Assembly: GCA_014871385.1 (NCBI GenBank)
Contig: CM026426.1
Span: forward strand, 54,623,265 to 54,687,264
DNA: 64,000 bases
Reading direction: 5' to 3'
Origin: Ceratodon purpureus
Lineage: Eukaryota; Streptophyta; Bryopsida; Pseudoditrichales; Ditrichaceae
In this document: piece by piece, positions 4,844 through 58,818 of the stretch
How positions within the stretch are numbered: the stretch's first letter is position 1
How the letters are laid out: each line of letters begins with the position of its first letter
Position numbers and translations under genes: made by a program
The notes under the pieces: generated by a model
Database searches by the model: none
What the model was told of the DNA's origin: nothing
The model's input: the letters and a program-made list of their open reading frames with translations, nothing else

Positions 4844-7012
4844 CTATCCTGTCTTTCTCTTCTTACGGCTCTCCTTCTCCTTTGACCGGGTTGTCCTCGG
4901 CTCGGATCCTCCTCCCTTTGCAGCACGTTCCGTCTGTCGCCTTGCTTTGGTTTCGGCCTTTGTTTCCTTTGCTTTGACGTCCAATGACCGGGTAACGATC
5001 TTGGTCTTGGGGTACTTGACGAATGTACCTCTCAGGGTAGGTGTACCAGACGTCGGGGTCCAGGTATCCGTTCCGGTTGTCCCGGCTGGGAAACTCGCGT
5101 AAGAATCCGAGTCGGACTCGAAAATCTCAATTGTGCCGGGATTGATTGGACCCTTCCTCTTCCTCAATTGGCGCGTGGTTCCAGAAGAATCCGCTGGAGA
5201 CACTTCCACAAGCGTTCTGACCGGGGTAGGTGTGACAGTACGAGTCCGGGCCGTTGGTGAAGGAGTAAGAGTTCCGTCCTCAACCACTCCGGTACGCGAG
5301 GGTGGTGATATGGATCTCCTCCACTGACTCCTGGCCACCTCCCGTTGATGAACCGGAACCACAACATCCCTGACCGTCGTGGTAACAATCGGCTGCACGG
5401 TCCGGGTAACCTCTTCCGTGACTGTTTGCTCCTCGGATCGCCTAAGGATGACTGTGGTTCCTGTAACCTCCGTCTGGCGGAGGGGGATAGTACAACTCTG
5501 CTGAGCGATACTGGCTCCGAGTGATGCCTCCTTTGCTATCACCCCAACTATCAAATCCGCAATTGTCCAAGGTGGACCAAAAATATCCGAATCCGTGGCC
5601 CTATCCTGCTCATACCTAAGCTGTGGCGACCGAATCTGCTCCTGAGGAGTCTTGAACCTTGCTCCACGGGATTCCTCTACCACTGTCCAAGAGGGAGATC
5701 CGGGAAATCACGTACCAACACTCGGACTTCCGGTTCCCGGACAGAGCAATCTCTTCATCAACTTTAGAGTCTTGCCCATCGAGTACTCCTACTTGTACTT
5801 GATTGTGATGATCCTCTCCCTGTCCTGTAAGTGAGCTGGGGCCATTATGTTCTCATCAAACAACCGGGCCTTGTTGACTACAACGCGTGGAACTCCCACC
5901 AACTTCCGGATCTTGTCCAAGGTCTGCTCCTACTCGGCGTAGAACTGACGGATCTCCTCGCTCTTCGTCGTGAGTTCCGAGGTAAGTTCCTTAATCAGGA
6001 GCTCCAGCCGCTGCTTCTCGCTCCGTAACTTTGGTGCATCCTTCAGAAGCTCGACTTCCCGTATAACCTCCTTTGGTTCACAGCCTCCTAGCGATGTGCA
6101 GACACTCCGGAACAGCGACTCAATCCGCTCGTAAGTGGCCTAAGCCTGGTGGGTCCCTTTCCTAAGTGATTGGAACAGGTCAGCCGGAAACCCTCGCTTG
6201 GAACTCACTGCCTTCCTTGCCGCGTCATCTCGGCCCGTGAAAGGTTCTACGTGATGGGATGTGGCTCGTTCCGATCGCGACTTAGAGTGGGCCTTCGTTG
6301 GGGCGGCTTCGGAAAGTATCTGCACATCCAATTCCCCTCCTTCCGTGGACGCCGTGTCGGAGTCCTCGTCGTGCTGCCTTCCTTCCACTCCTGCTAGTAC
6401 CTCCTGCAAGATGAGGAGATCCTTGGCTATCCTGTAGCTCTCCTCCTCCTTATCCATCAGCAGGCCACATGCATGGTAGAGATGGTAAAGGAAAGGGATG
6501 ATCGGAGTTGCTTTCTTTCCGACTCCGGCCAGCAATTTCTGCACAGTATCCGATACAAGCACGGCCGAGTTTACGGGACGCTCACCCGTATAGGCTCCGA
6601 GGATCGTGTTTCCGACTGTGATGGTGACTTGTTCTGGTTTCAGGACCTGTCTCTGTCTCCTATTTTTATAGGCGTCTACTACATATCCATTATTCTTATG
6701 GACCTTTCCGTGGAACCTATCCTGCACGTACTTACTCGTTCTGGTCGCCCAACTCAATCCCTCCTGAACGAAATCGTAAGTGGCCGCCCACATTTCCGCG
6801 GTCCACTGAGTTGGATGACCTCCGATCAAATTATCCCATCTATTATCCGGCCCATCTACGATTTCTCTCACCATCTCCTCATCTCTCAGCAACCAGGGTC
6901 GTGATAGCAAACCCTGGCACCTCATCCGGGTGAGATCCTCAACCAGCTCCTTCATCTCACTATCGGTCCTCGGAAGTGCGGGGCTAAGAACTCTAAGCTG
7001 AATTGGCACCAT
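4844..7012 (-). pseudogene. Element A accessory ORF (family shared with B and C), four in-frame stops
   Basis: One reading frame of about 720 codons, interrupted by TAG (6140), two more TAGs near 5941 and 5791, and TGA near 5716. The N-terminal half (MVPIQLRVLSPALP..., then a helical domain with TAEMWAATYDF and PIIPFLYHLYHACGLLMDKE) is clearly related to the ORF of element C (TAQLWRETYGF; LPSFLIHLYRHKGLL). A charged, coiled-coil-like middle follows (EKQRLELLIKELTSELTTKS), then a Thr/Pro/Ser-rich stretch and a very basic C-terminus (EKESRKKRKTG). The pattern of the first domain resembles the putative plant transposon protein domain found in accessory ORFs of plant gypsy elements; that assignment is tentative. 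No enzyme motif is visible. Confidence 0.6.
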
Positions 7013-11887: not shown

Positions 11888-14432
11888 TAATCTGCGATGG
11901 CTTGGGCCTCGGTAGTCAAAGTAGTGTATACATCTCCAAGACTTAATTTGGGAGAAACGTTTGGAGATGCTATGTGGTAATGTTTGAGCTTTTTGACATT
12001 TACAATCGTTGCTTGTGCATCATAGTTAGCATTGTTCACTAGGAACACAATATTAATTGGTAATACTAATTGTACTCTGTAGGGGCTATGCGAGATAGAC
12101 TCGAACTTGGATTTCCCTAGTTTAGGATCCCGTGGACACCAAAGAACATTGTTGCCCTTTTAAAAGGTACGTATGGGCTGAGACACTTGGATGTATTTGG
12201 CAGTTAGAGCTTGTCTGTTGGTGATGTTTTTTGTGACTAATGTCCTAAGTTCTTCTAAGTAATGGATGTCTTGGATACTGGCTGCTAAAACCTTGTGAGG
12301 TGAGTACTCCCTTGGATTCAAAGATTGGAATGTCGGTACGACATATTCCGTGGGTAGCAGGGGCTGAGTCCCATAAGCCATTTTGAAGGGGCTAAGAGCA
12401 GTGAACGTCTTGGTGGCAAAGCGGTATGCCCATAGGGCAGCAGGTAAGCTATTGTCTTGGTTAACGTGGACGAACCTCTTGAGCATGTTGATGATTGTTT
12501 TATTTGTGGATTTTTCTTGGAAATTTCCTTGGGGATAGTACACCGTATTGGTTCGGTGTTTCATAATATGATTGTTTATGAGATCTTCTATGCCGTTATT
12601 GACGAAATGGATGCCTTGATCAAAAACTATTTCCAATGGGCATCCAAAATGTGTGATAATGTTGTCATAGAGAAAGATAGCCGTGACCACCACGGTGTTA
12701 TTGCAAAGAGGCTTAGCTTCCACCCATATGGTGGTGTGATCCGTGGCAATCAAGATATACTTATCCTTGGCAAGTTATGGGACGGATGGGCCCTACAAAA
12801 TCTATCCCCATCGTTAGAAAGGTCCCAATAGAGGTGTGGATTTGAGGGGCACTCTGCCCTCGTATTGAAAATAAGTTGTGGATATTTGGCAGGCGTGACA
12901 GTTTTTGATATACAAGCGGACATCCTTGTAAAACATAGGCCACCAGTACTTGGCCGATAGGATCTTCTTGATTCTGGTGTCTGGACCTTGGTGACCCCCG
13001 GATCGGCCGTCATGGAGATGAGAAATATTACTTTGTTGTTGCTCGGTGGGTACACAAAGTCTCATTTTGTGGTCTGGGCCACGGCAATACAATTGACCTT
13101 GCACCACCGTATATGGCAATGTGATATGCACAAAACTAATTTTGCAGGTACCAGTGATGTCAATGGAAAGGGTTCCTTGCGTCAAGTATTGTATGATATC
13201 AATCATCCAGTCTTTGGTGACTTGGACATCTACGGTGGCTGCTTGATTATAAAGCTCATTAAATGAATCATCGATGCCTTACTCAATGGTATTGGTGTCC
13301 CTGGACAAATATTCGGCAATGACGTGTTGTTTTCTTGGGATAAAGAGGACCTCAAAATCATATTTCAATAGGATCATAATCCATCATGCGACATAGCCGG
13401 TAACAAGTGGTTGATTCACCAAATATGATAAGCTATAGTGGTCAACCATGAACCGGAATTTATTCCCAAACAGGCAGTGTTGGAATTATTTCACGGCGTA
13501 TATCATAGCAAGTGCCTCTCTTTCTGTCGTGGAATAATTTGGTTCGACTTGGTTGAGGAGTTGGCTGGCATATGCCACCGGCTGCTCGTGTTTGCCGTTG
13601 AGATTTTCTGCCAACATCATATCCACGACAATATTTGAAGCATCTGTGTGTACGTGGAATGGCTTGGACCAGCCAGATGCTATAACAATGGGAGCTTAGG
13701 AATATGCCTTTTTTATTTTTTTGAGGGTTTCTTGAGCCTCGGGTGACCAATCCCTAGGATACAAGTACTTGACATGGTTCAAGGCAGTAATGGGAGCCGT
13801 GATGTGGGCAAGCTTTTCGATGTAAATGCAATTGAATTGCGATAAGCCAAGGAGTTGTTGGACACCCTTTTGATCTTTGGGATGGGTGCTGTCCAAGATG
13901 TCTTTGATTTTTGTGGGATCAAGGATTTTTCCGTACTTACATACAATGTATTCCAAGATGACCGCGACAAAAAATAAGAACATGCACTTGTCTGCATTCA
14001 AACTGACACCATTGGCTTGGCAGGCGTGGAAGATTTGGCATAGATGGGAGACATGGTCTTTCATGTTGCCATACACTGTAGCACTCCCTAGATAAATGCA
14101 AAAGAATTGTTTGAGGTATGGGCAAAAAATTAGTTCCATGACACGTTGGAATGTCAACGGGGCGTTTTTTGCTCCAAACGACATCCTCTCAAAGTGGTAA
14201 GGTCCCCATTCTATTCAGAAAGCGGTCTTACTCTTGTCTTGTTCCGTCATGGCTACTTGGTAGTATCCCAAGAAACAATCCAAGAATAAATACATTATAT
14301 GGCCAGCGACCTCGTCGATTATGTCTCCCATGTACGGCAAGGGATAGTAGTCTTTCTTGGTTCTCGCATTTACTTTATAAAAGTCTATGCAAATGTGCAA
14401 CGTTCCATTCTTTTTTGGTAGGATAACCATCG
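11888..14432 (-). pseudogene. Element E: dead Ty3/gypsy pol (RT, RNase H, integrase)
   Basis: Minus strand, in order. The reverse transcriptase begins abruptly at PKKNGTLHICIDF (about 14432). Its catalytic block reads IYLGSATVY where F/Y-x-DD is expected, so both aspartates are gone. RNase H follows at about 13690-13250 (HVHTDASN, STTEREALAMIYAV) with several stops. The integrase zinc region is at about 13000-12870 (HLHDGRSGGH, then CHAC). The integrase core includes FDQGIHF and GNFQEKSTNK (12753-12160), and its C-terminal part continues to 11888 in another frame (NNVLWCPRDPKLGKSKFES). Gag and protease are absent at this locus. Multiple frameshifts and stops rule out function. The orientation matches element G at 60-62 kb, which might be its missing 5' half. 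Confidence 0.85.
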
Positions 14433-15990: not shown

Positions 15991-17233
15991 ACACAACATG
16001 ATTGGGGACGTAACCAAAAACACGGGTTTCTTCTAGTGTGTCCCACTGGTTTGAAGGAAACGGCTTGCAATGCTCCACCACGTGCTCCGCTAAACCAGCC
16101 TTGGATCGTTTAGTGACAGCTGCCGCACTAATAGTGGAGTCATTTGTCTCTACTCCATGGACTTTGGTGAGAATTACACCGCCGCATCTGTTGGGCAGGG
16201 AAGGTTTTTGGTTGTTCATGGATGCCGGTGAGGAACGGTTATGGTTCATATTTTTGTTAGGTTGGGCCTAGCGTTGCTTTAAAATCCACCATTGGCCTCA
16301 TTGACAGTTAGGCAATCCACATTCCTAGCATGTATTGTGAGTCCCACTACGGCAAACTATGGATTCTGGGAGCAAATTCCTTGTCCTCCTGAGAGTGGCA
16401 CCCCCAAGAGTGAAGCCCTCTGACTTTGACGTAGGTTTTGGACCAATGGGGTGCCTTATTCACCCAGATTGAAAGCTCTTTCGCGTCCGGAAGTTGATGC
16501 ACTGCAGGAGGAGTTCTCTTTTTACTCTCTAGTGCAGTCGTGGCATCACGTCATGATCTCTGAGGCCAATTACCCTTTCAACTTGTGTGCATCGTATGAA
16601 ATACGAGTTTTTCTTTACCTTTCTTATCGTCACGCTGTCATCATATATCCATCGAACTGGTTTAGAAGACAATACCTGTGTTGATATAGGTCAGTGTCGT
16701 TAAGGGTATGTGCATTTTCGTTGATGTTGCATTCTGAATACCGCACTCTGAATGAAACAAAGCGGATACTCTATTGAGAATGAAGATATAGACAGTTCAC
16801 TTTAGAGAAACGTGACTGCAATGCTCATACACACAAACATTCAAATAGTGCTGGTCTCAGTTTGTATTACCTGGAACTCGTCCATTACAATATGGGCGAC
16901 TTTACAAAATATAAGATACAACCGACACGGTCTTCCGTGACGACATAGGTTAACTAGGACTTAACGTTTTTATCAAGACAAACGATATGAAAGGCGATCT
17001 AATAACTCGAATGAAATAGGCGCTGACGACAGTCAAAAGCGATGACACTGGGAATGTGGCCTACACAGAACATTGAAAAACCTACATTATATTCCTGATA
17101 CTTACTGTCTCCCCAACGGTTATATTTCTAAATAGTTAAGTAACGCAACGTATTGCATGACAGGTGTGCACATTTCTATACATGCAAATCAAACAAGAAA
17201 CATGTTACCTTTTTCCATAATTTCTTTGTGTTC
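15991..17233. other. Region without a supported gene
   Basis: Short ORFs on both strands at 15989-16271 overlap each other and show no family features. The rest is AT-rich. It could hold the 3' untranslated region of the minus-strand gene that follows. Confidence 0.35.
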
Positions 17234-27528: not shown

Positions 27529-29046
27529 ATGGAGGAGGGGGACCAAAATGACCTGCGAGCAGAAAGGCAGGCCATAGAACGATTCAGACGCTACATGCAA
27601 CGGTATGAACGGGCGACAGAGCCAACTTTAGCGGAAGGACATGGCCGACTTAGCTCGCAGGGCAGTGCGGCTAAGCAGGTAGGAGAGCTCATTGACATGG
27701 AGGTGGAAAATGACCTGTCATCATCAGATGGGAGAACCAGAGAGAGCAGATTTGGAGGGGAGACGCAGTTCGAAAAAGGGGATAGGCTGAGCCGCCAGCC
27801 TGACCCAACTAGCACACCCTGGAAGTATCAAGATATGAAGAGGACATCATTATTCAGGAGGGATTTTTCCACTGCTGCAGATGATTACAACACCTTCAGA
27901 GAAGAACGCAGACAAACGCAGGAGGTCTTCGCAGAACCAACCCAGTGGCCCAGTACAGTCACTGGCAGAGCCGACGTGGGCACAGAGCCAACTCGGGGGC
28001 GCAGCCGACCAGTCTCTCCTGTACATCTGCCACAAACTCCAGAAACTTTACCTGCTGCTTTTCAGAGTTTGAAGCAGAAGCTGGAAGAGACCAAGAGTCA
28101 ATCAGTCCAGGGGCAGGGATTGGCAAATCCCACAGAAGGTGGACTTAGCAGGAATGTCCATTTTTTGGACGAATTCAGACTCCGGGCTGAGTGGGAGCAA
28201 GAAGAGGAGGACAGGCGGGCTGTGGAAGCATTCAAAGCAGACTTACAAGCTAGAAGAGGGAGGGCCAAACAGTATTCTACGACCCACACTCACAGCAGGC
28301 CTGATCCAGGTAAATACCTCCAGCAATTGGAAGCTTTAGAGCAGGCGGCACCCTCGGGCGAGGCGTCGTTACATCACTGGCATACTGAGCCACAGTGGCC
28401 GCCAGAACCGTCTCAGGCTGCATGGGAGCTTGAGTTCAACCGACGGATTCAGGAGACAGCTCAGAGGTTGGCCACCCAGCAGTTAGCGGCACAGCAAAGA
28501 GAGCAACAAAGGGTGGAAAGGGAAAGGCAAGAGCTAGCACAGCTGCACGATCTATGGGAGGAACAGAGACGGGAGCGCAAACAGGAACACACTGAGGAGA
28601 TCCCAGTCAGGACTCCCTACTTCACCGACCCAACTCCAAAGGTGCTAGGGGATAGAAAGATACCTGGACCCCTTCCAACTGCAGCTCCCTCGGCAGCCCA
28701 TCGACCGCTTGCTTATGTGGATCACCTTACAGGTGATACCTATCACTCTGCCCAGCCGACTCAGCCCACAGACAATCCTGTCAGAATAGCAGAGCCCACT
28801 TTTGGGGAATCCGTCTCTGAAGTGATTTATGGGGGGAGGCCTACAGTTCACACTTTATCCTCTGCCCCAGTAGGCTACAGCCCAACTGCTGACCCCGGAG
28901 GCCCTCAGAGTGCTGCACCTACTCCACACCCTCCGAGGCATCCCACAGTGACATCAGTAGTGCGACCTCCTGCTGTACCCACAGCCCGCACCACCGATTT
29001 CACCTCTGCGCCTCCTCGACCCCCTGTCAGTACTCAACGGAAGTAG
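27529..29046 (+). CDS. Element D ORF upstream of the gag core (505 codons)
   Basis: Starts ATG at 27529 (MEEGDQNDLRAERQ) after the leader and ends at TAG 29044-29046. Rich in Arg, Glu and Gln, with coiled-coil-like stretches at about residues 300-365 (RVERERQELAQLHDLWEEQ), then Pro/Thr-rich to the end. The gag core follows immediately in the same frame after the stop (LPYRAYKEGSDPDAHLRYF), so this is the N-terminal part of a long Gag, typical of plant gypsy elements with extended Gag. Whether the TAG is a mutation or a regulated stop cannot be decided here. Confidence 0.7.
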   Translation: MEEGDQNDLRAERQAIERFRRYMQRYERATEPTLAEGHGRLSSQGSAAKQVGELIDMEVENDLSSSDGRTRESRFGGETQFEKGDRLSRQPDPTSTPWKYQDMKRTSLFRRDFSTAADDYNTFREERRQTQEVFAEPTQWPSTVTGRADVGTEPTRGRSRPVSPVHLPQTPETLPAAFQSLKQKLEETKSQSVQGQGLANPTEGGLSRNVHFLDEFRLRAEWEQEEEDRRAVEAFKADLQARRGRAKQYSTTHTHSRPDPGKYLQQLEALEQAAPSGEASLHHWHTEPQWPPEPSQAAWELEFNRRIQETAQRLATQQLAAQQREQQRVERERQELAQLHDLWEEQRRERKQEHTEEIPVRTPYFTDPTPKVLGDRKIPGPLPTAAPSAAHRPLAYVDHLTGDTYHSAQPTQPTDNPVRIAEPTFGESVSEVIYGGRPTVHTLSSAPVGYSPTADPGGPQSAAPTPHPPRHPTVTSVVRPPAVPTARTTDFTSAPPRPPVSTQRK

Positions 29047-30116
29047 TTGCCGTACAGAGCCTACAAGGAAGGTAGTGATCCAGATGCCCATCTCCGCTAC
29101 TTTGATAAATGTGCCTGGTTCAATGGGAAATCGATGAACAAGTGATTATCACACTGTTCGGGACGACTCTTGTGGATAAAGCCCAGAGATGGTTTGATGA
29201 TTGGCTGGATCACCATCTTTACTGCACGTAGGAAGAGGCTAAGGAAGCTTTCAAACTGCGATATCGAGAGCAAGATTCAGATGAGCAGGTCTACATGACT
29301 CTCAGAACCTTCAAACAGGGTGAGGGAGAGAAGGTACAAGACTACTACGAACGTTTTATGAAGTTGATCAAGTGCCTGCAGACAGAAGTGGGAGAAGGGT
29401 TCAAGCTTACATATTTCAGGGCAGGTCTCCTTGATTACTTGAAGGTGACTACCAGTGGGTCTACAGCAAACACCCTTACCGAACTGAAGGAGCTGGCTAG
29501 GCGTTGTGAGACTAATTGTACTGATGCTTCGGGGAAGAAGTTATACTTTCAGGCCAAGAGGACAGAGCCGACTAATAGTCGGGCTAGTACTGCAAATGCC
29601 CAGGCAGATCAGGTAGAGACAGTCAACCGCAGGTTTTGCACGATATGCAAGAAATTTGGGCATGAAGACAAATACTGCTTCGTGAACCCAGATAACCCAA
29701 ACAACAGGCTACCCAGGGCGGAGGGGAAGCCGACTGTAGGAGTTCACGAAGTATCCGCTACACAACAGACCAGTGGCTCAGGAAGACAGTTCAACAGCCG
29801 ACCTGGAGGATATCAAAACAGCGGAGCTGGCAGGATTGATGGGTGCTTCTTGTGTTTAGGCACTGACCATTAGATGCGTAATTGTCATTTACGTTTAAAG
29901 TTTCAGCAAATGTTGGCTGCTGAAAAGCTCGGAACTAACTCTGTTGGTGTCAGCAGTGTGGAGTTGCAGGAGTTGGATAACCCTGAAGTGGCCACTATTC
30001 TAAGCAGAGCGGCTAGGGTGCGAGCCGGACTTCCACTGGAAGATAAGGAACTAAAAGAACCAGAACCACGACTGCCCAAGACTCAGGCAGACTGGGAGAA
30101 GGAGGAACGGCTTTGA
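29047..30116 (+). pseudogene. Element D gag core and zinc knuckles, broken
   Basis: The Retrotrans_gag-like core is recognisable (AQRWFDDWL, EEAKEAFKLRYRE, VQDYYERFMKLIK). It is interrupted by a frameshift near 29130, TAG near 29230, TAG 29871 and TGA 30114. Two CCHC knuckles (C-x2-C-x4-H-x4-C) are present: CTICKKFGHEDKYC, and a second at about 29847-29885 in which the TAG falls directly after the histidine. The downstream part leads in frame to the pol ORF. Gag binds the element RNA and forms particles; this copy cannot make an intact one without readthrough. Confidence 0.75.
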
Positions 30117-30161: not shown

Positions 30162-33100
30162 TTGGCACAGCAAAAGGAAGAGGAGCTTCAAAAAGCAAAC
30201 GTAGACAACTCTACATCCACAGTTACAGACGGACCAGTACTAGATAGTGACTGGGCAGGGTTTCCTGATGCGGATTGCTTACAGGAGACACCTAAGCTGG
30301 TGCCGACTGGGGCTTCGACAGAGCCGACTACTCCTCAGCCTTCAACAGCCGTTAAGACTGTGAGCAAACAGATTTTACAGACACCTATTACTGTGTCTTT
30401 GGGGGAACTGCTCGAAGTGGCCCCCAACCTTACTGAGTATGTCAGAGCGAAAGTATTTCCCAATACTCAGCGACAACATAGACTGTCATTTGAGTCGGTT
30501 CAGCATCAGCAGGTTTCAACAAAGGCACAGCCGACAACGACACCAGTGGATATCCAGAATCCCCAGGGATCATCGGTACACCCTAACCTGGTTGTTGGTG
30601 CAGTAAATATTGATCGAGGCCTTCCGGTTATTTCTGTGCAGGTGGGGCAGTTAACATTGGACAACGTACTCCTGGATGGAGGGTCTGGTGTCAACCTAAT
30701 TACTGAGGAGGAGCGAATTCGGTTGGGGTTGAAGGAGCCGTCACAAGCACCTTATCGATTGCGTATGGCTGATCAGGCCGTCGTGGAGCCAGTGGGGTTG
30801 ATAAGGAATGTTCGGATTCATATCCATGGTATTCCGTACAATATCAGTCTGACCGTTATCAGGAACAAGGAGGTCCACGAAGCCTACAGCATGCTACAGG
30901 GCCGTCCTTGGCTCATAGATGCAAAGGTAACGCATGATTGGGGAAACAAACTGGTTACTATCCGAGGTAACGGTACAGTCAAGACTATCTCTATCAACCA
31001 ACGAAAGGGCCCTCTGCCCAAGCTGCCAGAAGTACTTGTGTGCTACAATTTAGCTGAAGGGCTGACAGATGAGGAGGAGGATCGTTTCTTGAGAACAGAG
31101 GAGGATCTATTCGCAGTGGGGACTATTACACTACCGGAGGGTTTGAGTCTTCCACTTAACCACGGGATCAACCGACCCCCAGCCGACCTTCGCAAAGCCG
31201 ACTATACCGCAGCCGACATAAGAGCCGACTTGGGCACCGCCGACTCAGCGAAGGTACCTGCACCAGTTCCGGATTCTGCCACTTACCCAGAACATTTTTA
31301 TACTTTCACGGAGGGTGAAATGCCGGTGGATGAAACACCTGTAAGAGATAAGCTAGGGGAGATGAAGGTGGCAGCATGGAACCTGACTGAAGAGGAGCAG
31401 CTACGCAAGATCAATGTTGGCACTGAGGAGTCTCCCAAGATCTTGAAGATCGGAGCTCAATTGGAGCCAACCATGGCTAAGGCAGCTGAGGACCTGTTGA
31501 GGGAGTATACAGATGTGTTGGCCTGGACATACAAGGATTTGAAGGGAATACCCCCCTCGGTAGCTCAGCATCGGATTGTGCTAGAGAAAGACGTCCCGCC
31601 TATCCATCAGGCCCGTTACAGGATGAACCCGAACTATGCCAGCATTGTCAAACAGGATATTGACAAATTGTTGGCGGCAGGGTTCATCATACCAGTCGAG
31701 GAAGCAACCTGGCTCTCACCCATTGTTGTTGTTCCTAAAAAAAATGGTCAATTAAGGATTTGTATTGACTATAGAAAATTAAATGCTGCTACTAAAAAGG
31801 ACCCTTACCCTCTTCCATTTACTGAAGAGGTGTTAGATGTTGTGGCAGGTTATGAAATGTACTCCTTCCTGGATGGTCGGTCTGGTTACTATCAGATTTC
31901 GATTGCTCCTGAGGATAGGCATAAGAGTGCCTTCATCACGGAATGGGGCGCTTTTGTCTGGGTGGTCATGCCTTTCGGCCTGACTAATGCACCGCCTACT
32001 TATCAAAGGGCTGTGAACAAAGCGTTCAAGGAGTACTTGGGGCGATTCATGAAGCTGTTCCTCGATGACTTCACAGTGTACAGCGACCTAGCCGACCATT
32101 TACAGAAACTGCGCCTATACTTCGAGAAGTGCAGGCAGTATGGCATCAGTTTAAATCCAGAGAAGTGTGCATTTCTGGTCACCTCTGGCATTATACAAGG
32201 CCATGTGGTTTCCAAGGTAGGCAAGATGCCAGACCCTAAGAAGATTGAAGTTATTCAGGAGATGCCCCGACCACAGCACGGAGCCGACGTAGAGAACCAG
32301 AACCAGACAGGGAAGTGTGACCGGCCGATCTCCTATGCTTCTCGGTTGCTTAATTCCGCTGAAAAGAATTATACCACCACAGAAAAGGAAGCCCTGGCTA
32401 TGGTTTATGCTCTTACAAAATATCGTCATTATCTTTTGGGGAACAAGGTGGTTTTTTATGTGGATCATATGGCTCTGGTGTATTTAGTTAACAAGCCTCA
32501 AGTGTCGGGGCGGATTGCCCGATGGCTTTTGCTATTTCAGGAGTATGATTTCACAGTGGTGTACAAGCCCGGCAGGCAGTATGGCGCAGCCGACTTACTC
32601 AGCCGACTTCCTAACGGTGAGCCGCCTATTGGAGTCCCCGACCAGCTTCCTGACGCTGGGTTATTCTACGTATCCCCTGAGTGGTTGCAAGACATCCGGG
32701 ATTACTTGCGTACCGGAGAGCCGTCTGCCACAATGTCCAAGGATGAGAAGCGGAAGTTACTGTTACGGGCCCTTCCTTATACCTTACTGGATGGAGTGTT
32801 ACATAAGAAGGGGCAGGATTTGGTACTACGACGGGTCTTGGACCCTGTCCAAGCCGATACAGTTATGAGGGAGATGCATGATGGCTGCGCAGGTGGCCAC
32901 TTCTCCCAGGATATCACCTCCTGGAAGATTCTGGATGCTGGATACTGGTGGCCAACTCTCCATAAGGATGTTTCAGAGTACTGCAGGGCCTGTGACAAGT
33001 GCCAACAAGTCGGAGGATTGGCCAATACAGGACTAGCCCAGTTAGTCACCAGCCTACCTGCAGAGCCGTTCATGAAGTGGGGCTTGGATTTTGTGGGGCC

Positions 33101-34283
33101 CATCAAGCCAGCAGCAGCCACGACAGGTAACAGGTACATTCTAGTTGCAACCGACTATGCGACAAAGTGGGTGGAGGCTAAGGCACTCCGAACGAATACG
33201 GCGGCTGTCACTGCTAAGTTCCTGTATGAGAATATTTTGACCCGCTATGGCTGTCTTCTAACTCTAGTCAGTGACCAAGGCACTCACTTCATCAACGAAG
33301 CCATCGAATACCTGGTACAGCATTTCCTCCTGCAACATCAGACATCCACAACTTACTATCCACAGGGCAATGGACAAGCAAAATCGACCAACAAGGTTCT
33401 AGGTCGGATACTCACCAAACTTGTCAGTGACAACAGGACTGACTGGGATGAGCATCTACCGACTGCCTTATTCTCTTACAGGACCGCCTTTAAGGTTAGC
33501 ACTAGGTGTACCCCTTTTCAGCTGGTCTACGGGCTTCATCCACTTATGCCTACGGAGTATACTGTCCCTACCCGCAGAACCGACAGCGAGATTGATTTTA
33601 CTCAAACTCGAGTCTTACAAGCCCGCACAGCCGACCTTGAGCAGCTCGACAGCCACCGATTGGCTGCACAAGCAGAGTCAGGAAGTCGGCAGTGGGATAG
33701 ATCCCTGTGGAGCCAACAGCATTACCGGCAGAAAGATTTTCAAGTGGGGGATCATGTCTTATGGTATCCCAAGGGTGAAAAAGAACACGCTGGAAAGTTT
33801 AAGAGCAGGTGGTTTGGGCCTTATCGGGTTCAGTACCGACTTCCCAATAATACCGCTTTATTGGTGACCGAGGAGCATTTTGAGCCCAACCCAAAAATCG
33901 TGAACATCAACAAGCTCAAACCCTATCGCTTTTATTCGGAGGATCAGCTAGTCACTGTGGGTCCTAAGCAGCTGCCATGTGGCTCTGCCACAAACCCTAT
34001 TAAGCAGCCGGAGACAGTACTGAGCTCAGCAGGCACGCATTCAAGTGACTGGTCCGAGGGCGCCCATGACTCTAGTTTTCAACCTATGCTACCTCCAACC
34101 ATGGCCGAGTTCGCGCCCCCTCCCACCCCTCCTCCTGGCCCGATCCGAGACCAAGCAGAAGTAGAGTTGAGCATTGATGAATCCGCATCCGCCTCCACAC
34201 TCACCTCGACAGTAGGCTGTTTTTCTGTACAGCCCTTCTTTGATCACTCGGGCATCCCTTCTACCCCCCCCCCCCACACCTGA
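30162..34283 (+). CDS. pol: Element D pol polyprotein (protease, RT, partial RNase H, integrase)
   Basis: 1373 codons. Protease active site LLDGGSGVN at about residue 172 (DGGSG instead of the usual DTGA/S). RT follows, with FLDDFTVYS at about 635. At about 707-720 the sequence jumps from [10 protein letters not shown] to [10 protein letters not shown]; roughly 110-120 residues usual in gypsy elements, covering the end of RT and the first RNase H aspartate, are missing in frame. RNase H continues with TTEKEALAM and the integrase zinc region with HDGCAGGH and CRACDKC (from about 906). Integrase core has WGLDFVG (976), VSDQGTHF (1038) and then NGQAKSTNK, where lysine (1074) stands at the position of the catalytic glutamate. 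The tail is Pro/Ser-rich and stops just after a run of 12 C (34264-34275). Likely inactive but well preserved. Confidence 0.9.
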
Positions 34284-52043: not shown

Positions 52044-52073
52044 GTACATGTCATACTGTTTTTTTATAATTGT

Positions 52074-52119
52074 AACACCAAATTCGTTATTTTGGGAGAT
52101 TTATAATCTCCCAAAATAA
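52074..52119 (+). repeat. Left TIR of element H with terminal hairpin
   Basis: TIR 52074-52100 begins AACACCA and ends GGGAGAT. Its inner 14 bases plus one more (52087-52101) pair perfectly with 52105-52119 around a 3-base TAT loop, making a 33-base palindrome. The right TIR has no such second arm. Confidence 0.75.
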
Positions 52120-52123
52120 TGCA

Positions 52124-52925
52124 TTAGGTCAGGTCGAGTTAAAATGGGCACAATGGTCCCATACTTGGCAAGGAAAAGCTTATAAGCAATTTCCATTAAT
52201 TTGGGACATGATCACACAGTACTAATGGGAAATGAAAGAACGTAGTGGTTTACTAGAAATATTTGAAAAAATACAAGGTAGGTCGAACCACCCTAAATGA
52301 ACACCAAACAAATAACAAGAAATGGACACAACGGATATGCTGGGAAATCTTATATTATATATATGTGTGGAAATACAAATTAGGTCCACACTCCTTAAAT
52401 GTTGAATCCGTGAGAGGCTCTTTCAGACCTGTACAAACAATCAAGTTGTTCGACTAACATAGCTGCCTACAGTTTCCGGAGTATGATATGCAATCCAAGA
52501 ACATACGGACTTCAGTATAGTCCCATGCCAACAAATGTATGTTATCGGCTCTACTTCAGAAATCCAAACTAGAAACTTCAGCGCTAGATGTCGTTTAGGT
52601 CGCCTCGACCTAAATGGCTGGTATGTGGCAGTACATATGATATAGAATCAACGCTTTAGGGTACTAAGTAAAAATCTACACTAAGAACTATAGGTGACCT
52701 GTTGGTATCCTGCACTCGTAAAGTACGAACTTCAACGCCAAATGCAGTTTAGGTCGCCTCGACCTAAACTGCGGCCTATAATGTGGTACACATGATAAAT
52801 AAGGAATGGACTGAAACACTTAAGTAGTGATTCCTCCAATTAAATATATGTAATTAGCTAGTATTCAAAACATAGATACGCTAGAACTAATACGCTATAA
52901 CTGATTAGGTCGACTCGAGCTAAAC
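52124..52925. repeat. Left subterminal palindromes of element H
   Basis: Strong copies: 52593-52615 (GTTTAGGTCG, CCT, CGACCTAAAT), 52744-52772 (GCAGTTTAGGTCG, CCT, CGACCTAAACTGC, perfect 13-base arms) and 52905-52925 (TTAGGTCGACTCGAGCTAAA). Weaker relatives are at 52124-52142, 52279-52298 and 52379-52400. They look like binding sites for a dimeric protein with half-site TTTAGGTCGA. No coding sequence lies in this stretch. Confidence 0.75.
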
Positions 52926-53056
52926 ATCTACCTTTGTCTTGAAAACATAATGTTGGATGAAGGGACGAACGAAATTCAGTTCAGTCGTCTTCAAACGAAT
53001 ATAAGCAATCTGACTAAATTCAGAACTTCAAGATCACCAACTTCAAAGCTACATGT

Positions 53057-55894
53057 TTATTCAGAATCCGGAGACACAAATCTCTCCAAGGAGGCCTTTA
53101 TAATGACCAGTTGTTTCAGTGGGATCTTCAGCGTTGGATCCTTGCCAACGCCCCGCTCGTTGACATTTTTTTTAACTTTGGATTTCCAAGCTGTTATGAC
53201 TGCATCAGTACTCTGCCACGACTCGGGTACATCCCCCTCAACTGTCCAACGAAGTCTCCCATCCACATCCCAGCCGGTATAGAATTTCAAAACATTTTCA
53301 TCTCGGGAAATTGGGCGGTAGAACTCTACTTGGAGCGTGTTCGGGAGGTCAGGGTTCGAATTAGGGTCAGTCAAGGCCCTTGCAAGCCAAAAAGGACGAT
53401 CGTCTTCATCGCAGGGTCGAAGCGCCAAGAAGTACCCTGCAAAAAGGTCTCGCGCAACACGGAACGACGGTCCTGGGCGATCTCGTTTGTGACCAACACA
53501 GTGATCATCCTCTGCGAACTCCTCGCGCAAAGTTCCATCTTCCTGAAACGCGTCTTCGACGGAGTAAGCGAGCCGCGTGGATGGCCAAAAACCATGCTCC
53601 AAGGCGGGGACAGCATCAAAGGGGATGGAAAGAGCCTCTTTAACATCGTTCCAATAGTATGAGAGTGGCTCATAGATTCTTTTGGACTCAACTGAATCCG
53701 AAGATAGCCTCTCCCAATGATCTACAAAACCCGACAAGCCCTTAATCACATCAGGCAGGTGCCGCATCTCGCGAGGCGCCACGGCACCAGGAACACCACG
53801 GGGCCATAAAGATCGACCTTCTGAATCCTCCTTCCACAACTTGATGCCACAACCATCTCCTTTTGGCAACCAGTCGTCGTCGTGACAGAAGATTTTATAC
53901 TTCATGACTGGGCATCGTGAAGAGTCTACATAGAATTTGAACTGATGAGCTTTAGTGTGACCCATTAACGTATCGTCGCCATCAAGCATCCACTCCGCGA
54001 TGAATTTCTTGAAATCTGGGACCTCCTGAATCAGATGCGGAATTGTTGGTACAGCTTCATTTTTCATGAAGGACTTCATGAGGAGAGGTACTGTGGGGAA
54101 GTCCTCCCTCCGCAAAGCCATGCTCCATCGCCCGGAAAGGGCATCAATATCGTCATGAGTATGGCCGACCAGCATGAAATTCACGTACACTTCGCGAAAC
54201 ACCCGCTTCGTGACTAATAGGGACCAGAATGAAAATACAAACCTATTCTTGTTATCACTGACAGCGTTATCCATTTGGACGTTAAGAATGGGAGGCAAGG
54301 GTTTAGCAGCAATAGGAACCTCAGGAGGAGGGCCAAGAGGATCCAAACACATCTCTGAACCATGCAAAAGCGCGGCATACAATGGGTGGGAAGGATTCTC
54401 TTGAAAGAGTTCGCTAGAGGTGGATTTAGGGGGTGACTCAAGGTCCCGAAGGAGCTTCGCAAACGATCCAACCGTGTAATTAGCGTCGTGTGAGTAAATG
54501 TCAAGGCCATAATGGGCGTAACGTTGGTCCACATGCCCATGAGCAAGCATTCCGGTGACAGCGAGAGGAAGCTTCATGAGACCGTCTAAGTGTTTGACCT
54601 TGTGGGATAAGGCCGGCGACGCCGTCTTCGAGTGGTCCATCTTGTCATGCATAATTGTAAGAACTTCATGCGGAGTAGCCTTCGAACTGAATCAATTTAG
54701 GTAGTACAAGTCCCTATGCGCCATTGCAAAGTCATTGTGCAGCCTCATTTTCTTAGACCACAACAGGGACGCCTGAGATCCTGTAACCGTCAACTTCTTC
54801 TGGGACTGGAACTCATTACATTTTGAGCAACGAGCGAAGTTGTCTCCTGCCCGTTTGGCGTAATATTCTGGATAGCTAAGCCTCCTGATCTTGCTCAAGT
54901 TAGAAGCGGACATAGGAGGCAATCCACAGTCCGCTAAATGCTCATCGAGGATCAGAATCTGTTCCTTCCATTTGAAACTGGAAGGCAGAACTTTAGCTAC
55001 AACTGTCTCCCCTGTGGGCAGAACACGACTCTTCTGGGGCATGTGGTCGGCATGCCTGTTAAGGATGGCCCCTAGGACGGCAGTTGCTACCACTGTGTGA
55101 TTTCGAGGTTTACGTAAACCAGTATTACCGTGAAATTGAGCTTCGAAACCAGCAGCAGCATACTTGGCATTTCTATAGAATGTACTGGAGCTCACTCCCA
55201 TAATCTTCATCGAGGCGAAGGGGCAAACATCTATGCCCTCCAGAGTCACCACACTCCTCCCCGCTGAATTCTTGTGGATCTGTCTATGCACGTCGAGTTT
55301 TATGTGGTTACGGAACTGCACTGTGGTCTTGTCGTACATACGCGACCGTAGAGTAGAGATTTTATCTCTGGGATAGTGTTGGACGCATAGGTGAGCGCAG
55401 CACGTGTTTGCCGCTACAGAGTTGATAGATGGCTGGGTCATCAGAAACTCAGCGTGACGTGATATAGGTGGGGGGGTATTCCTAGAGGAGTTATCATACG
55501 ATCGGGTACGATCTCCCAGGGATCGGTTACGCTCCGCAACCCAACGGGTATACACATCACGTTGACTATGGTGCTCTAGGCTAACTCCATCCAGATAGAC
55601 GTGGCTGATAGGCCACGTTTTGAAGGAGTACCTCCAATCATCCTCTGACTCTTCTTCGACCAAAGAACGTGATACCTGGACGACGACAACGGAATCACCA
55701 AGGGGACCAACCGTGTCAGATACCAAGCTGGACCGTGGGTTCCGGATCAAACCCTCTGCTAACGGGATATTGTCGTCACTATATATTGTTATAGTCTTGT
55801 TCTGCCATTGTCTTGAGGGTACAACCGCGAAGTCTGGAAGGTCTGGGTTTACGGGCACTTCAACGGGTATCTCGTCATCTGAGACATAGTCCAT
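53057..55894 (-). pseudogene. DUF7869-type (putative transposase) gene of element H, one in-frame TGA
   Basis: Minus strand. Likely start MDYVSDDEIPVEVP at 55894, just after a TTTCAG acceptor-like site. One frame of about 946 codons to TAA at 53057, with a single TGA at 54692-54694. N-terminal half: Cys/His segment NTCCAHLCVQHYPRD with R-x5-T-x-x-x-R, and CSKCNEF near the stop. After the stop: IMHDKMDHSKTASP, then VQMDNAVSDNKNRFVFSF and FMLVGHTHDDIDALSGRWSM. These three blocks, each with conserved aspartates, are the hallmark of DUF7869 proteins. They would suit a DDD-type RNase H fold, but that is inference. The C-terminal part (GYFLALRPCDEDDRPFWLAR) looks like a beta-rich module. Set in a TIR element, it is the obvious transposase candidate. 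The TGA fits a CGA-to-TGA mutation. Confidence 0.75.
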
Positions 55895-55986
55895 TGTACC
55901 TGAAATGCAACAGACCCAATTTTGTGAGAACATATTATACTCCTTAAAGAGAATCAATCTCTAAATTTGAGAACTTATCCCAGGCG

Positions 55987-56155
55987 CAGTTTAGCTCGAG
56001 TCGAGCTAAACTGTTCCTGGACTATGGGAAGCATGAGTTTAGCTCGAGTCGAGCTAAACTGCTGCTGCCCTTTAGATGCAGAAGTTTAGCTCGACTCGAG
56101 CTAAACTCATGCTGCCCTTTGGATGCATCAGTTTAGCTCGAGTCGAGCTAAACTG
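55987..56155. promoter_or_regulatory. Four regularly spaced palindromes upstream of the DUF7869 gene
   Basis: Palindromes at 55987-56013, 56036-56060, 56083-56107 and 56129-56155, each AGTTTAGCTCGA, one base, TCGAGCTAAACT, with perfect arms of 12-13 bases. Centres are 48, 47 and 47 bases apart. They use AGCTCGA, whereas most subterminal copies use AGGTCGA. They lie 90-260 bases upstream of the probable start codon, where an autoregulatory operator would be expected. Confidence 0.8.
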
Positions 56156-56160
56156 CCGTC

Positions 56161-57400
56161 CGCAAAAAGCGGCGCTTTAATAGGTGCTTACATCGTCAGA
56201 ATTCAGAGTCTCAGACTTAGAGTACGCTTACGGTGTCCGCTCTCAAACGTTTCCAAGTACTAAGTGAGACACTGCTAATACATTATGAATTGAAACAATC
56301 GCAAGCATACAACAACCAGAAATGAATGAGATGTACTGATGATCAGAGAAAACTAAAGAGAAGACGTACAAGAGAAACGGCGCAATACAGCTTCCGCTCA
56401 AAGAACAACGACCTCCAAGTGAGCGCCGAGAGCTCCTACACGCGAGAGAAGCAAGTGAGTAGAGAAAAGACTTCGAGCGTGGACGATTCGAGAGGTCATT
56501 CTCTAACGTGTAACCGTTTTCATGCCGCTTGAGTTTTGAAAATAGGCGGGAATCATGCATGACCTGTCGTCCCTCCACATTTCGGGGTGTGAGAAAGCGC
56601 GGGAATTACCACTTTCCATACTTCTTGGCCCTTTAGATAGATGCAGATGCGAAATATTTTGTGCATTAAATCAAATGGGATGGGTTGGAAGTCCCTATAG
56701 CGCCAGACAGAGTGTTGACTTTTGGCCGCAAACTTTTCTTCCTTTTTCAGGGTTCAGGGTTTAGGGTATAGGGTTCAGAGTTAAGGGTTTAGGGTCTTAG
56801 GTCCAGGGTTAAGGGTTTAGGGTATAGAGTTAATGCATTTCTAGGGACATTAAATATCTCGTATATGGAATAAAATTAAATGGAAAATTGTTTGAACCTA
56901 TTTGAATTTCGTGAGTAAGGTTCATACAAGGAAGTATATCGTTGCAAATATTCATACCTCCATGTAGTAGAGTATGTATTTTTTCTCAATTTCATTAGTA
57001 TATATGATGTATGAAATCAAATCATTATATGTGAGTTGATGAATAGTGCTTGATAGACCTTGGTAGATATGTTTTTAAATCTAGAATTATTTATTTGTTC
57101 TACATATTTAGTCAGATATAATTATCATTAACGAGGCAATTAGTCGTAGACCATAATTTGGCATGATTTCGGTTCTCTACTTTGTTAATAGACATTTCTG
57201 AACTGCCGCGCAGCTATTAGTATGTTGTACATCTTAACCACTTGCGTAATCTTTGTATCCAGACTACTCCTTTTGTAATACAAAGTTTATATTTCTTTCT
57301 TGATCTATTCTGCCCCTTGCGACGAACCCTAAACCATTGCTGAATTATTGCGGGATGTATGTTTCTATTCGCTTTATGTATTGCAGGATAATGCATGTTG
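56161..57400. other. Central non-coding region of element H
   Basis: Divergent promoter region between the two genes of H. Contains the telomere-like tract and no supported exon, apart from a possible 5' exon of the DUF7869 gene. Confidence 0.4.
56746..56829 (+). repeat. Degenerate interstitial telomere-like repeat
   Basis: About twelve imperfect units around TTTAGGG / TTCAGGG / TATAGGG in a row, for example GGGTTTAGGGTATAGGGTTC. This matches the plant-type telomere repeat in degenerate form. Confidence 0.7.
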
Positions 57401-57497
57401 AGCCTCAGTGGATTCTTTGAATAATGCTTATGGCTGCGGGCCCTCTCTACGTAGCAGAGGGCTTCTGTTGCAATTGGTTGCAACAGCGCAGTCCACG

Positions 57498-58163
57498 ATG
57501 GACTATTCAACTATGGCTGTCGACGAAGGGGTTGTGGACAGCCCGGTTAACCTGTCCGTTCCCAAGACCCTGAAATCCCCTTCTCCTATGTGGCCACGGA
57601 CCGTACTGCAGGTTCTATCTCTGAAACGACAGAGTTCTACCCCTACAAAGCGTGCTCTTTATAACAATGTGGAGGACATGCCGTCACCACCACCGGCAAA
57701 GGTTGGTTTTCATTCCTCAGTATTCGCTTTTCATTCCTTTCTGATGTTTCATTCCTGTAAGTTTCTTTCATGATGTTTCATTCTGATGTTCTTTAGTTTA
57801 GCTCGAGGCCACCTAAAATGATTGATCTTTTTATACTTTCATCTAGGTCTGGTTCTAGCTTATGTAGGCCTCCTCGTTCAAGGTCCGTTCGACCTTTACA
57901 CTTGCACTCAGCAGTTTAGGTCGATTCGACCTAAACCAAAATCTCTTCCTAATGCTAATTTATCCCCTTTGCAGATGCCGAGGCTACGATCAACAACTAC
58001 AGGATCCAGGGCAAGGAAGTCCGCCTACTCCCACTCTAAACCATCCAGTACCCATCGCCACTCTCTGCCAGAGTCAAGCATCGGTGACAGGCGTAGGCAG
58101 AAGTTGCAACGTCTTCTTGATAGTCCAATGATGCAGGTCGAGGGAATGTCGTGGACACGTTAG
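57498..58163 (+). CDS. Small basic-protein gene of element H (two exons)
   Basis: Exon 1 57498-57701 (68 codons, ATG at 57498, AAAG|GTTGGT donor) and exon 2 57975-58163 (CCTTTGCAG acceptor, 62 codons plus TAG), joined in phase 0. The product of 130 residues is rich in Ser, Pro, Arg and Lys (SLKRQSSTPTKRALYN; STTTGSRARKSAYSHSKP; DRRRQKLQRLLDSPMMQVEG). No domain is recognised. One palindrome (57795-57817) lies in its intron and another (57911-57937) just before exon 2. A second, DNA-binding protein beside the transposase would parallel the two-protein systems of CACTA and Harbinger elements; that is inference. Confidence 0.5.
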
Positions 58164-58645
58164 CGCCAACGGGAATTTGTCTAGTCAAGAATTGAGGCTT
58201 ACGGAGGGACTCCATAACCATATAGAGGATACTATGTACTGTATAGCAATGGTGCAGACAATGTAGACGATTATAAGAGTCCTCTGTGTTATTTCAATGT
58301 AATTATGTTTTGAATAAAACGATTGATGTGTTTGTCAAATTTTCTCGTCTGCTATTTTTGCCTCATTGTCTTGCACACTTTTTGTGTTATTCAAATTTCC
58401 GAATGTAATTTATGTGATTGGACATTGCCTTTTATTGAAACCTTGGTTTAGAAAGGTAACGAATAGTTACTACTAAAAATGCAGGGGACGTGGTATATTC
58501 TTTTTCCTTGTTTATATTGCGTTTAGGTGTGATCGACCTAAATGACTTAATCATCATCTCTCTTTAAACATGTTTTTAATGAATCAATGAACATTTCTAA
58601 GTTTTCTCCTGTATGTTCGTGCATTTAGGTCCACTCGACCTAAAT
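57795..58645. repeat. Right subterminal palindromes of element H
   Basis: 57795-57817 (AGTTTAGCTCGA with a diverged second arm), 57911-57937 (GTTTAGGTCGA, T, TCGACCTAAAC, perfect), 58521-58543 (GTTTAGGTGTGATCGACC...) and 58623-58645 (ATTTAGGTCCACTCGACC...). The last two lie 130-280 bases from the right TIR. The stretch 58164-58620 otherwise has no gene. Confidence 0.7.
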
Positions 58646-58774
58646 GACATGGACCTCATTGTTCATTTAAGGTGTTTTTTTAATGATTCAATATTGATTT
58701 CCGCAAGATAAAAGTAAATGGGAGGGCACGAATGTGGCCATTTCTCTACACGCTGATTTCCCAAATTCAAGAAT

Positions 58775-58801
58775 ATCTCCCAAAATAACGAATATGGTGT
58801 T
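58775..58801 (-). repeat. Right TIR of element H
   Basis: Inverted copy of 52074-52100, starting ATCTCCC and ending GGTGTT; one mismatch. TTGT follows at 58802-58805, as it precedes the left end at 52070-52073. Confidence 0.75.
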
Positions 58802-58818
58802 TTGTTTCTTTAAACAAG

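Follow-up and report, generated by a model that had tools for sequence, protein, structure and literature searches.

The window analysed here is a stretch of 64,000 nucleotides from the moss Ceratodon purpureus (GenBank assembly GCA_014871385.1, contig CM026426.1, positions 54,623,265 to 54,687,264 of the forward strand), and at positions 52074-58801 it carries a copy, shortened by an internal deletion and interrupted by a stop codon, of a family of larger DNA transposons with terminal inverted repeats (TIRs), and inside this copy lies a gene for a protein of the DUF7869 family. An initial annotation, made from the letters alone, had described 27-bp inverted ends with one mismatch and the word TTGT outside each end, and these borders were borne out. 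The pair 52074-52100 and 58775-58801, located as an inverted repeat and by pattern search of the genome, spans 27 nucleotides of which 26 are complementary (96%), the left TIR (plus strand) being proximal to the DUF7869 gene and the right (minus strand) distal; TTGT stands at both 52070-52073 and 58802-58805 as a 4-bp target-site duplication (TSD), recognized from the sequence and by comparison with the TSDs of other copies. The long gene of the same annotation does contain its three Asp-bearing blocks, HDKMD, MDN..DNKNR and GHTHDDID, but it lies on the minus strand as two open reading frames (ORFs): a C-terminal piece of 531 amino acids with all three blocks (53057-54652; ORF list, Pfam and genome matches) and an N-terminal piece of 421 amino acids (54692-55957), the start codon of which is probably near 55893. 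The two are separated by an in-frame TGA (54692-54694, minus strand) which, like the N-terminal piece, was placed from the ORF list and copy comparison. That no other transposase family is present inside the element was checked by Pfam on four ORFs only.

The 27-bp end recurs throughout the 362-Mb genome. A pattern search allowing up to two mismatches returned 165 forward and 159 reverse matches, and because the reversed control returned 0, these 324 ends are far beyond chance; further copies sharing both TIRs, for which the initial annotation had suggested searching, were thereby found. Among the first 100 places listed, neighbouring ends that face each other within 60 kb form 33 pairs: 24 enclose 17-20 kb, eight are longer, and one, at 6.7 kb, is the window copy. 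Two complete copies of this family (family A) were read, 17,590 and 18,507 bp in length, each with an intact DUF7869 frame of 955 amino acids finishing approximately 975 bp from one end. Given these lengths of 17.6-18.5 kb, a short solo element was rejected: the ends and TSD of the window copy are real, but it is not full length, with approximately 11.6 kb of the complete copies gone at a junction (57127-57128) where the alignment passes directly from position 5237 of the 18,507-bp copy to its position 16834. The best 81 of 1279 DUF7869 candidates in the genome (the window copy included) and the best 92 of 718 candidates for a second gene, described below, were scored, and fractions drawn from them are valid for these best copies only. 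On this basis, 38/81 DUF7869 matches keep an uninterrupted frame of at least 949 amino acids and 23/81 carry stops within the match; the scored family A matches other than the window copy are 94-98% identical. As many as 45 of the 81 are found on a single 110.5-Mb contig (C6) that makes up about 30% of the assembly, an excess that the score ranking may bias. The complete copies (L031/L033) also contain at 6.3-6.9 kb an additional plus-strand ORF of 176-179 amino acids without a Pfam match, which gave no tblastn match in the complete copies of families C and D introduced below; the stretch around it, 5.3-8.6 kb, consists to 76-85% of internal repeats.

Each copy examined for a target duplication has one. 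A perfect 4-bp TSD was observed in 15/15 copies, 13 of family A and two of other families, and the sequences vary: TTGT, GTAT, ATGG, TTAT, ATGA, AGGT, AAGA, CATG, CTTG, AAAA, ATGA, AAAT and TTGT in family A (13/13), and ATAT and TGAT in the two others. Besides the window copy and both complete ones, the 13 include ten other end pairs; all 12 outside the window had been picked, with their flanks still unseen, out of the 24 pairs spaced 17-20 kb apart in the first 100 places listed. When the flanks of the 13 were mismatched, 4/156 pairings gave 4-bp agreement. The piggyBac and Kolobok superfamilies duplicate TTAA, and with TTAA accounting for 0/15 of the TSDs, such TTAA-specific superfamilies were rejected. 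Sites resembling the state before insertion were recovered for one copy, on contig C3, which sits in a many-copy sequence resembling a retroelement polymerase gene. Thirty-eight of the 40 genome matches to its joined flanks cross the insertion point as one range at 72-78% identity (the remaining two are the flanks themselves), and the flanks joined with a single TSD align gap-free to a related locus (202/275); these unbroken sites are related repeats, different from a same-site allele. With the window copy, no empty site was found, its left flank (100 bp) being unique in the genome.

The window gene matches Pfam PF25273 at 140.6 bits (cut-off 26; E 5.8e-41). An alignment of 61 relatives shows no variation at the MDN Asp or at the last two alternate Asp of GHTHDDID, and conservation of at least 90% at each Asp of HDKMD, with the DNKNR Asp and the first one of DDID in neither list; a profile search of the PDB gave no significant relevant match, the single one being at E 0.73. 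The genome holds three further DUF7869 families, B, C and D, at about 50% identity to family A: C and D are 47.5-48% identical to A, B and C are 83-87% identical, and D is 58% identical to B. The tip AACACCATATTC is common to families A-D. DUF7869 genes lacking such ends had been put forward in the initial annotation as an argument against its own proposal, yet when the 3' flanks of 12 genes of families B-D were compared, 10/12 lost their inter-copy similarity at, or no more than 7 bp from, the tip GAATATGGTGTT; at one locus (L057) divergence occurs before the tip and a matching tip lies approximately 3.2 kb from the gene, and at another (L066) the tip is altered. Genome searches with the tips returned 193+190 places for family D and 64+56 for B/C, with controls at 0. 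One complete copy each of family C (21,324 bp, part of which reads N) and family D (23,286 bp) was read, family B being known from proximal ends only, so that the four complete copies (two of A, one each of C and D) range from 17.6 to 23.3 kb. DUF7869 thus marks cut-and-paste TIR transposons of at least four families with the same tip, and we have little doubt that the TIRs, the TSD and DUF7869 as transposase constitute a transposition system. The earlier view of DUF7869 as the transposase of its own element family accordingly stands in that the domain goes with a TIR element group of its own; the copy from which it was drawn is only a deleted derivative of a family of 17.6-18.5 kb.

The two ends of these elements are built differently. 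Adjoining the proximal tip of the window copy is a hairpin (52087-52119) with arms of approximately 14 bp, recognized as an inverted-repeat pair, and the same layout with another stem sequence is found in families C and D: the arms measure 14, 12 and 12 bp in A, C and D, their sequences differing while complementarity is kept. The distal end of the window copy (58755-58790) has, by end comparison, a GGGA-containing word as a direct repeat and no hairpin; the longest arms at the distal ends of A, C and D are 4, 4 and 7, and in all three, one GGGA- or GAGA-containing word recurs there as a direct repeat. A hairpin at one end against a direct repeat at the other suggests that the transposase reads the ends differently. 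From this anatomy, DUF7869 would be a DDD-type transposase that binds the hairpin-bearing proximal and the direct-repeat distal end, excises the element and then inserts it with a 4-bp staggered join.

What the window copy has lost includes a second gene module. In the complete copies of families A, C and D, DUF7869, exon 1 and exon 2 of a second, divergently oriented gene, and a NIF/FCP1-type HAD protein occur in the same order and orientation. The second gene appears, from its sequence, to have three exons and two GT-AG introns, both of phase 0 and in corresponding positions in the three families. Identity of C and D to A is 28-31% for exon 1, 30-31% for exon 2 and 37-42% for the NIF protein; tblastn with the third exon or with a small gene of family A matched nothing in the C and D copies. 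Between the two family A copies, the ratio of nonsynonymous to synonymous differences (pN/pS) is 0.14 for DUF7869, 0.22 and 0.23 for the others and 0.35 for NIF, values that are rough given the few differences. Among the matches listed, the second gene lies within 35 kb of 56 of the 81 scored DUF7869 loci, on the expected side and in divergent orientation, in 51 of these cases at 7.7-10.2 kb. Transposons are known to capture genes, and NIF/HAD proteins are a common eukaryotic gene type, so that the accessory genes could be passive host cargo without function for the element. This is scarcely credible, however, with the same gene set and order retained in A, C and D despite approximately 48% transposase identity, together with conserved introns and low pN/pS, and randomly captured cargo was rejected on these grounds. 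Homologues of exon 2 include a Physcomitrella (P.) patens protein (P0252; 35% identical over 68%). Two database entries attributed to uncultured cyanobacteria, the proteins P0150 and P0217, also match the module and are probably moss DNA in crust metagenome bins.

The small gene of family A persists in the window copy as a remnant which, like the palindromes discussed below, the initial annotation had not reported. It is Ser/Pro-rich, and its first exon, with inferred limits 57499-57702 (plus strand), is an ORF also present in both complete family A copies; an Arg-rich second exon is proposed at 57976-58163 (plus strand) from the ORF list and copy comparison. Pfam gave nothing above its cut-off for this gene. 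Between it and the divergent DUF7869 gene lies a degenerate TTTAGGG/TTCAGGG run (56748-56831) resembling plant telomere repeats.

The core of exon 1 contains a nearly invariant IINGQHS, and its sub-threshold matches include DGQHR (0.0085, in 1/47 members), the ParB-like partition protein phrog_1033 (0.022), DndB (0.041) and DUF6551 (0.064/0.14). Very tentatively, the core may be called DGQHR/ParB-like, a label that leans partly on what we take the DGQHR motif to look like. Against the PDB, the only low E-values obtained with the exon 1 profile (0.0046 and 0.0065) were low-complexity huntingtin matches, and a tblastn search of phages with the exon-1 core gave one irrelevant match. Exons 2-3 comprise a degenerate methyltransferase-like stretch followed by an acidic tail. 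The end of exon 2 aligned by hhalign with the motif X-I region of ten beta-class methyltransferases at E 6e-4 over 42 columns (probability 28.8%), compared with 0.11-0.76 for ten column shuffles and 0.28-0.94 for three unrelated pairs. A match to N6_N4_Mtase at 0.029 was seen in 1/39 exon 2 members, three unrelated families scoring lower (0.0025-0.010), and the PDB search with exon 2 gave nothing below E 0.61, its matches including two arginine methyltransferases (0.66 and 0.83). Beta-class N4/N6 DNA methyltransferases carry a motif I of the form DPFxGxGT and a motif IV DPPY; in the exon 2 alignment the acidic residue of motif I is lost and no DPPY is seen in the consensus. Exon 2 is thus a possible, distant and degenerate methyltransferase relative. 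The HAD protein clearly matches Pfam NIF (PF03031; E 3.7e-13). Phosphatases of the NIF/FCP1 type have the active site DxDx[TV]; the element protein reads DLNG or DING, the second Asp of the motif being Asn in A, C and D, and with this motif it is probably a weak or dead phosphatase. A viral origin was rejected, there being no support from Pfam, run on seven ORFs of one complete copy, or in viral contigs, where 19 and 54 stretches matching the patterns of two element proteins yielded 0 confirmed relatives.

Short palindromes occur mostly in the noncoding parts of these elements, and each of the three families has its own 21-bp sequence: AGTTTAGCTCGASTCGAGCTAAACT in A, TTTAGCTCACNGTGAGCTAAA in C and TTATCCTCGASTCGAGGATAA in D. 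Repeat analysis of the window copy located a subterminal palindrome TTTAGGTCGCCTCGACCTAAA at 52593-52616 with a second copy at 52747-52769, another, GTTTAGGTCGATTCGACCTAAAC, inside the inferred intron of the small gene (57911-57936), and a distal subterminal one, TTTAGGTCCACTCGACCTAAA, at 58620-58645; upstream of the DUF7869 gene (55986-56156), four palindromes of 25-27 bp based on AGTTTAGCTCGASTCGAGCTAAACT form an array that numbers eight in both complete family A copies. For the two A copies, C and D respectively, the array before the DUF7869 gene has 8, 8, 10 and 10 members and that preceding the second gene numbers 10, 12, 9 and 6; a few more palindromes are in this gene's introns. Elements of A, C and D carry 28, 28 and 23 palindromes against 0-5 in shuffled sequences, and the family A core has 2154 exact sites in the genome (reversed control, 0). 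None of the 97 palindromes counted in the four complete copies, two of which are of family A and hence non-independent, falls within the conserved coding intervals (0/97), which make up 27-42% of the elements.

To what these sites respond can be argued in several ways. In CACTA/Spm elements, TnpA binds subterminal and regulatory sites, and the palindromes could by analogy be such sites of the DUF7869 transposase itself, with the second gene set accessory to the chemistry of transposition. Consistent with this are the single subterminal palindromes near both ends of family A (starting at 521, 675 and 18,332 of 18,507), the array that directly precedes the DUF7869 gene in all three families and is the larger one in C (10 vs 9) and D (10 vs 6), and the window derivative, which retained the DUF7869 gene and palindromes and dropped the second module. 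Nevertheless, arrays are also present at the promoter of the second gene (10, 12, 9 and 6), with further sites in its introns, and the tips are constant between families whereas the palindromes are not. Conserved tips combined with differing palindromes suggest a separate reader for each, and we regard the palindromes as somewhat unlikely to be the transposase's own sites, although this is the chief competing reading.

On balance, we lean toward the explanation that a DDD transposase is accompanied by its own control apparatus acting on the family palindromes, with self-activation or anti-silencing as the likeliest role. A complete element would encode this apparatus as the divergent spliced second gene and the FCP1/NIF-type HAD protein, the products of which would act, family by family, on the 21-bp palindromes of the two promoters and the introns; the likely effect would be a sequence-specific self-activation or anti-silencing, as exerted by VANC proteins with their repeated noncoding targets in VANDAL transposons. 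It is because tandem noncoding motifs differing between families match the pattern of VANC targets that self-specific transcriptional activation or anti-silencing is proposed for the second module, a functional assignment to which, taken singly, we give somewhat less than even weight. The arrays of family A are also evenly spaced (approximately 47 and 53 bp), and such clustering beside a gene with an IINGQHS core weakly matching ParB/DGQHR families invites comparison with a ParB-parS system, wherein the second-gene product would load on the arrays and spread or cluster, so that large copies pair, condense or are retained. We consider this distinctly improbable: there was no significant ParB profile match, unrelated families were equal in the same scans, Pfam saw no ParA-like ATPase in seven ORFs of one complete copy, and an element integrated in the chromosome has no need of a partition system.

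Several observations weigh against a control apparatus encoded by the second module. Twenty-five of the 81 DUF7869 loci have no second gene at the expected place among the matches listed, and 3/81 have it in another orientation. One family C palindrome lies in an open frame after exon 2, outside the intervals set for that family, and the palindromes could be bound by the transposase instead of the predicted second-gene reader. Unrelated families scored as well or better in the exon 1 scans (CTD11, 0.001; SemD, 0.0013; YxeA, 0.0042; a PHROG of unassigned function, 0.0039; LPD11, 0.023); the DGQHR match at 0.0085 was not the top of its own scan. The exon 1 profile was not significant against P1-type ParB (0.1-0.16), and its values against YbdM-type ParB (0.15 and 0.23) fell within the shuffled range of 0.026-0.94. 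The methyltransferase-like match of exon 2 has a probability of only 28.8%, and the canonical catalytic motifs are not kept. A more far-reaching version of the scheme would make these 18-23 kb elements plant transposons with epigenetic licensing, in which a prokaryote-derived DGQHR/ParB-like and dead-methyltransferase protein, a pseudo-phosphatase of the type acting on the RNA polymerase II C-terminal domain and family palindrome codes co-evolved in one genome would keep an element's own copies active; we rate it as unlikely, and the more so since the exon 1 scans put unrelated families level with DGQHR/ParB.

Elsewhere in the window, a 1373-amino-acid ORF on the plus strand (30162-34283) with RVT_1, RNase H, integrase zinc-binding and rve domains represents a largely open polyprotein of the Ty3/Gypsy type. 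The ORFs upstream of it (27529-29873) look gag-like, Pfam having found nothing in 27529-29043. A minus-strand region at 12160-14184 is probably a decayed Gypsy pol, with an rve match (9e-4) below the cut-off and an RT-like ORF fragment recognized by eye.

The literature searched, which omits most subscription papers, yielded no mention of DUF7869, and those of its titles and abstract openings that were listed describe no such element, Repbase also being outside the search. Mavericks are very large TIR elements with several genes, and Teratorn is likewise a very large multi-gene TIR element; the moss elements differ in that the seven ORFs scanned by Pfam in one complete copy showed neither a viral gene nor a polymerase. 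For the second gene, fusions of ParB with a methylase are described in bacteria, as in Bacillus (B.) cereus Bce_0392, and share with it a possible order of a ParB/DGQHR-like followed by a DNA-methyltransferase-like part, which makes such a pair plausible and not more (PMC5512222). The moss gene, however, is eukaryotic, spliced and carried on a TIR transposon, its assignments being weak and its catalytic motifs lost.

The closest transposons by description alone are those of the Sola superfamily, to which the DUF7869 elements may belong: in the accounts available, Sola transposons have TIRs of 11-1124 bp, a 4-bp TSD, a transposase described as DDD-type and in some cases sizes above 15 kb, and they occur in moss, Sola1 being tabulated for Physcomitrella (PMC10741241; PMC9033089). 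The elements might then simply be moss Sola1 transposons that have been catalogued before, their large representatives among them, and at most a new family, and the 50-55% identity of P. patens DUF7869 proteins to those of the window family is in keeping with this. We treat it as a genuine possibility that nevertheless falls short of an even chance: the short Sola descriptions at hand, with which the comparison was made by description alone, mention no second module, palindrome arrays or hairpin/direct-repeat asymmetry, and bivalve Sola1 elements average 5.4 kb (PMC10294476). What is new is the second module, with its three-exon gene, the FCP1/NIF-type HAD protein and the palindrome arrays. 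DUF7869, an unannotated domain, can now be read as a probable transposase for which the element ends and a 4-bp TSD are defined, so that such genes in other genomes can be annotated, and DUF7869 elements can be units of 17.6-23.3 kb with a conserved second module rather than 3-kb genes.

For the proposed control apparatus, the nearest counterpart is the VANDAL/VANC system. VANDALs are MULE-type (Mutator-like) elements with TSDs other than those found here, and their repeated motifs are 9-bp words as opposed to the 21-bp palindromes of the moss; moreover, Pfam reported no VANC-like protein in the scanned ORFs of one complete copy. In Arabidopsis, VANDALs are reported likewise to have an extra gene beside the transposase and family-specific repeated noncoding motifs, which form tandem repeats in introns, between genes and in the noncoding termini and differ between related families (PMC5735166; PMC10398659). 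Should self-activation or anti-silencing be correct, the moss elements would provide a further instance in plants, involving other proteins, of a transposon protein coevolving with the noncoding repeats that it targets, and with three families bearing three palindromes in one genome, the matching of reader to code is directly testable.

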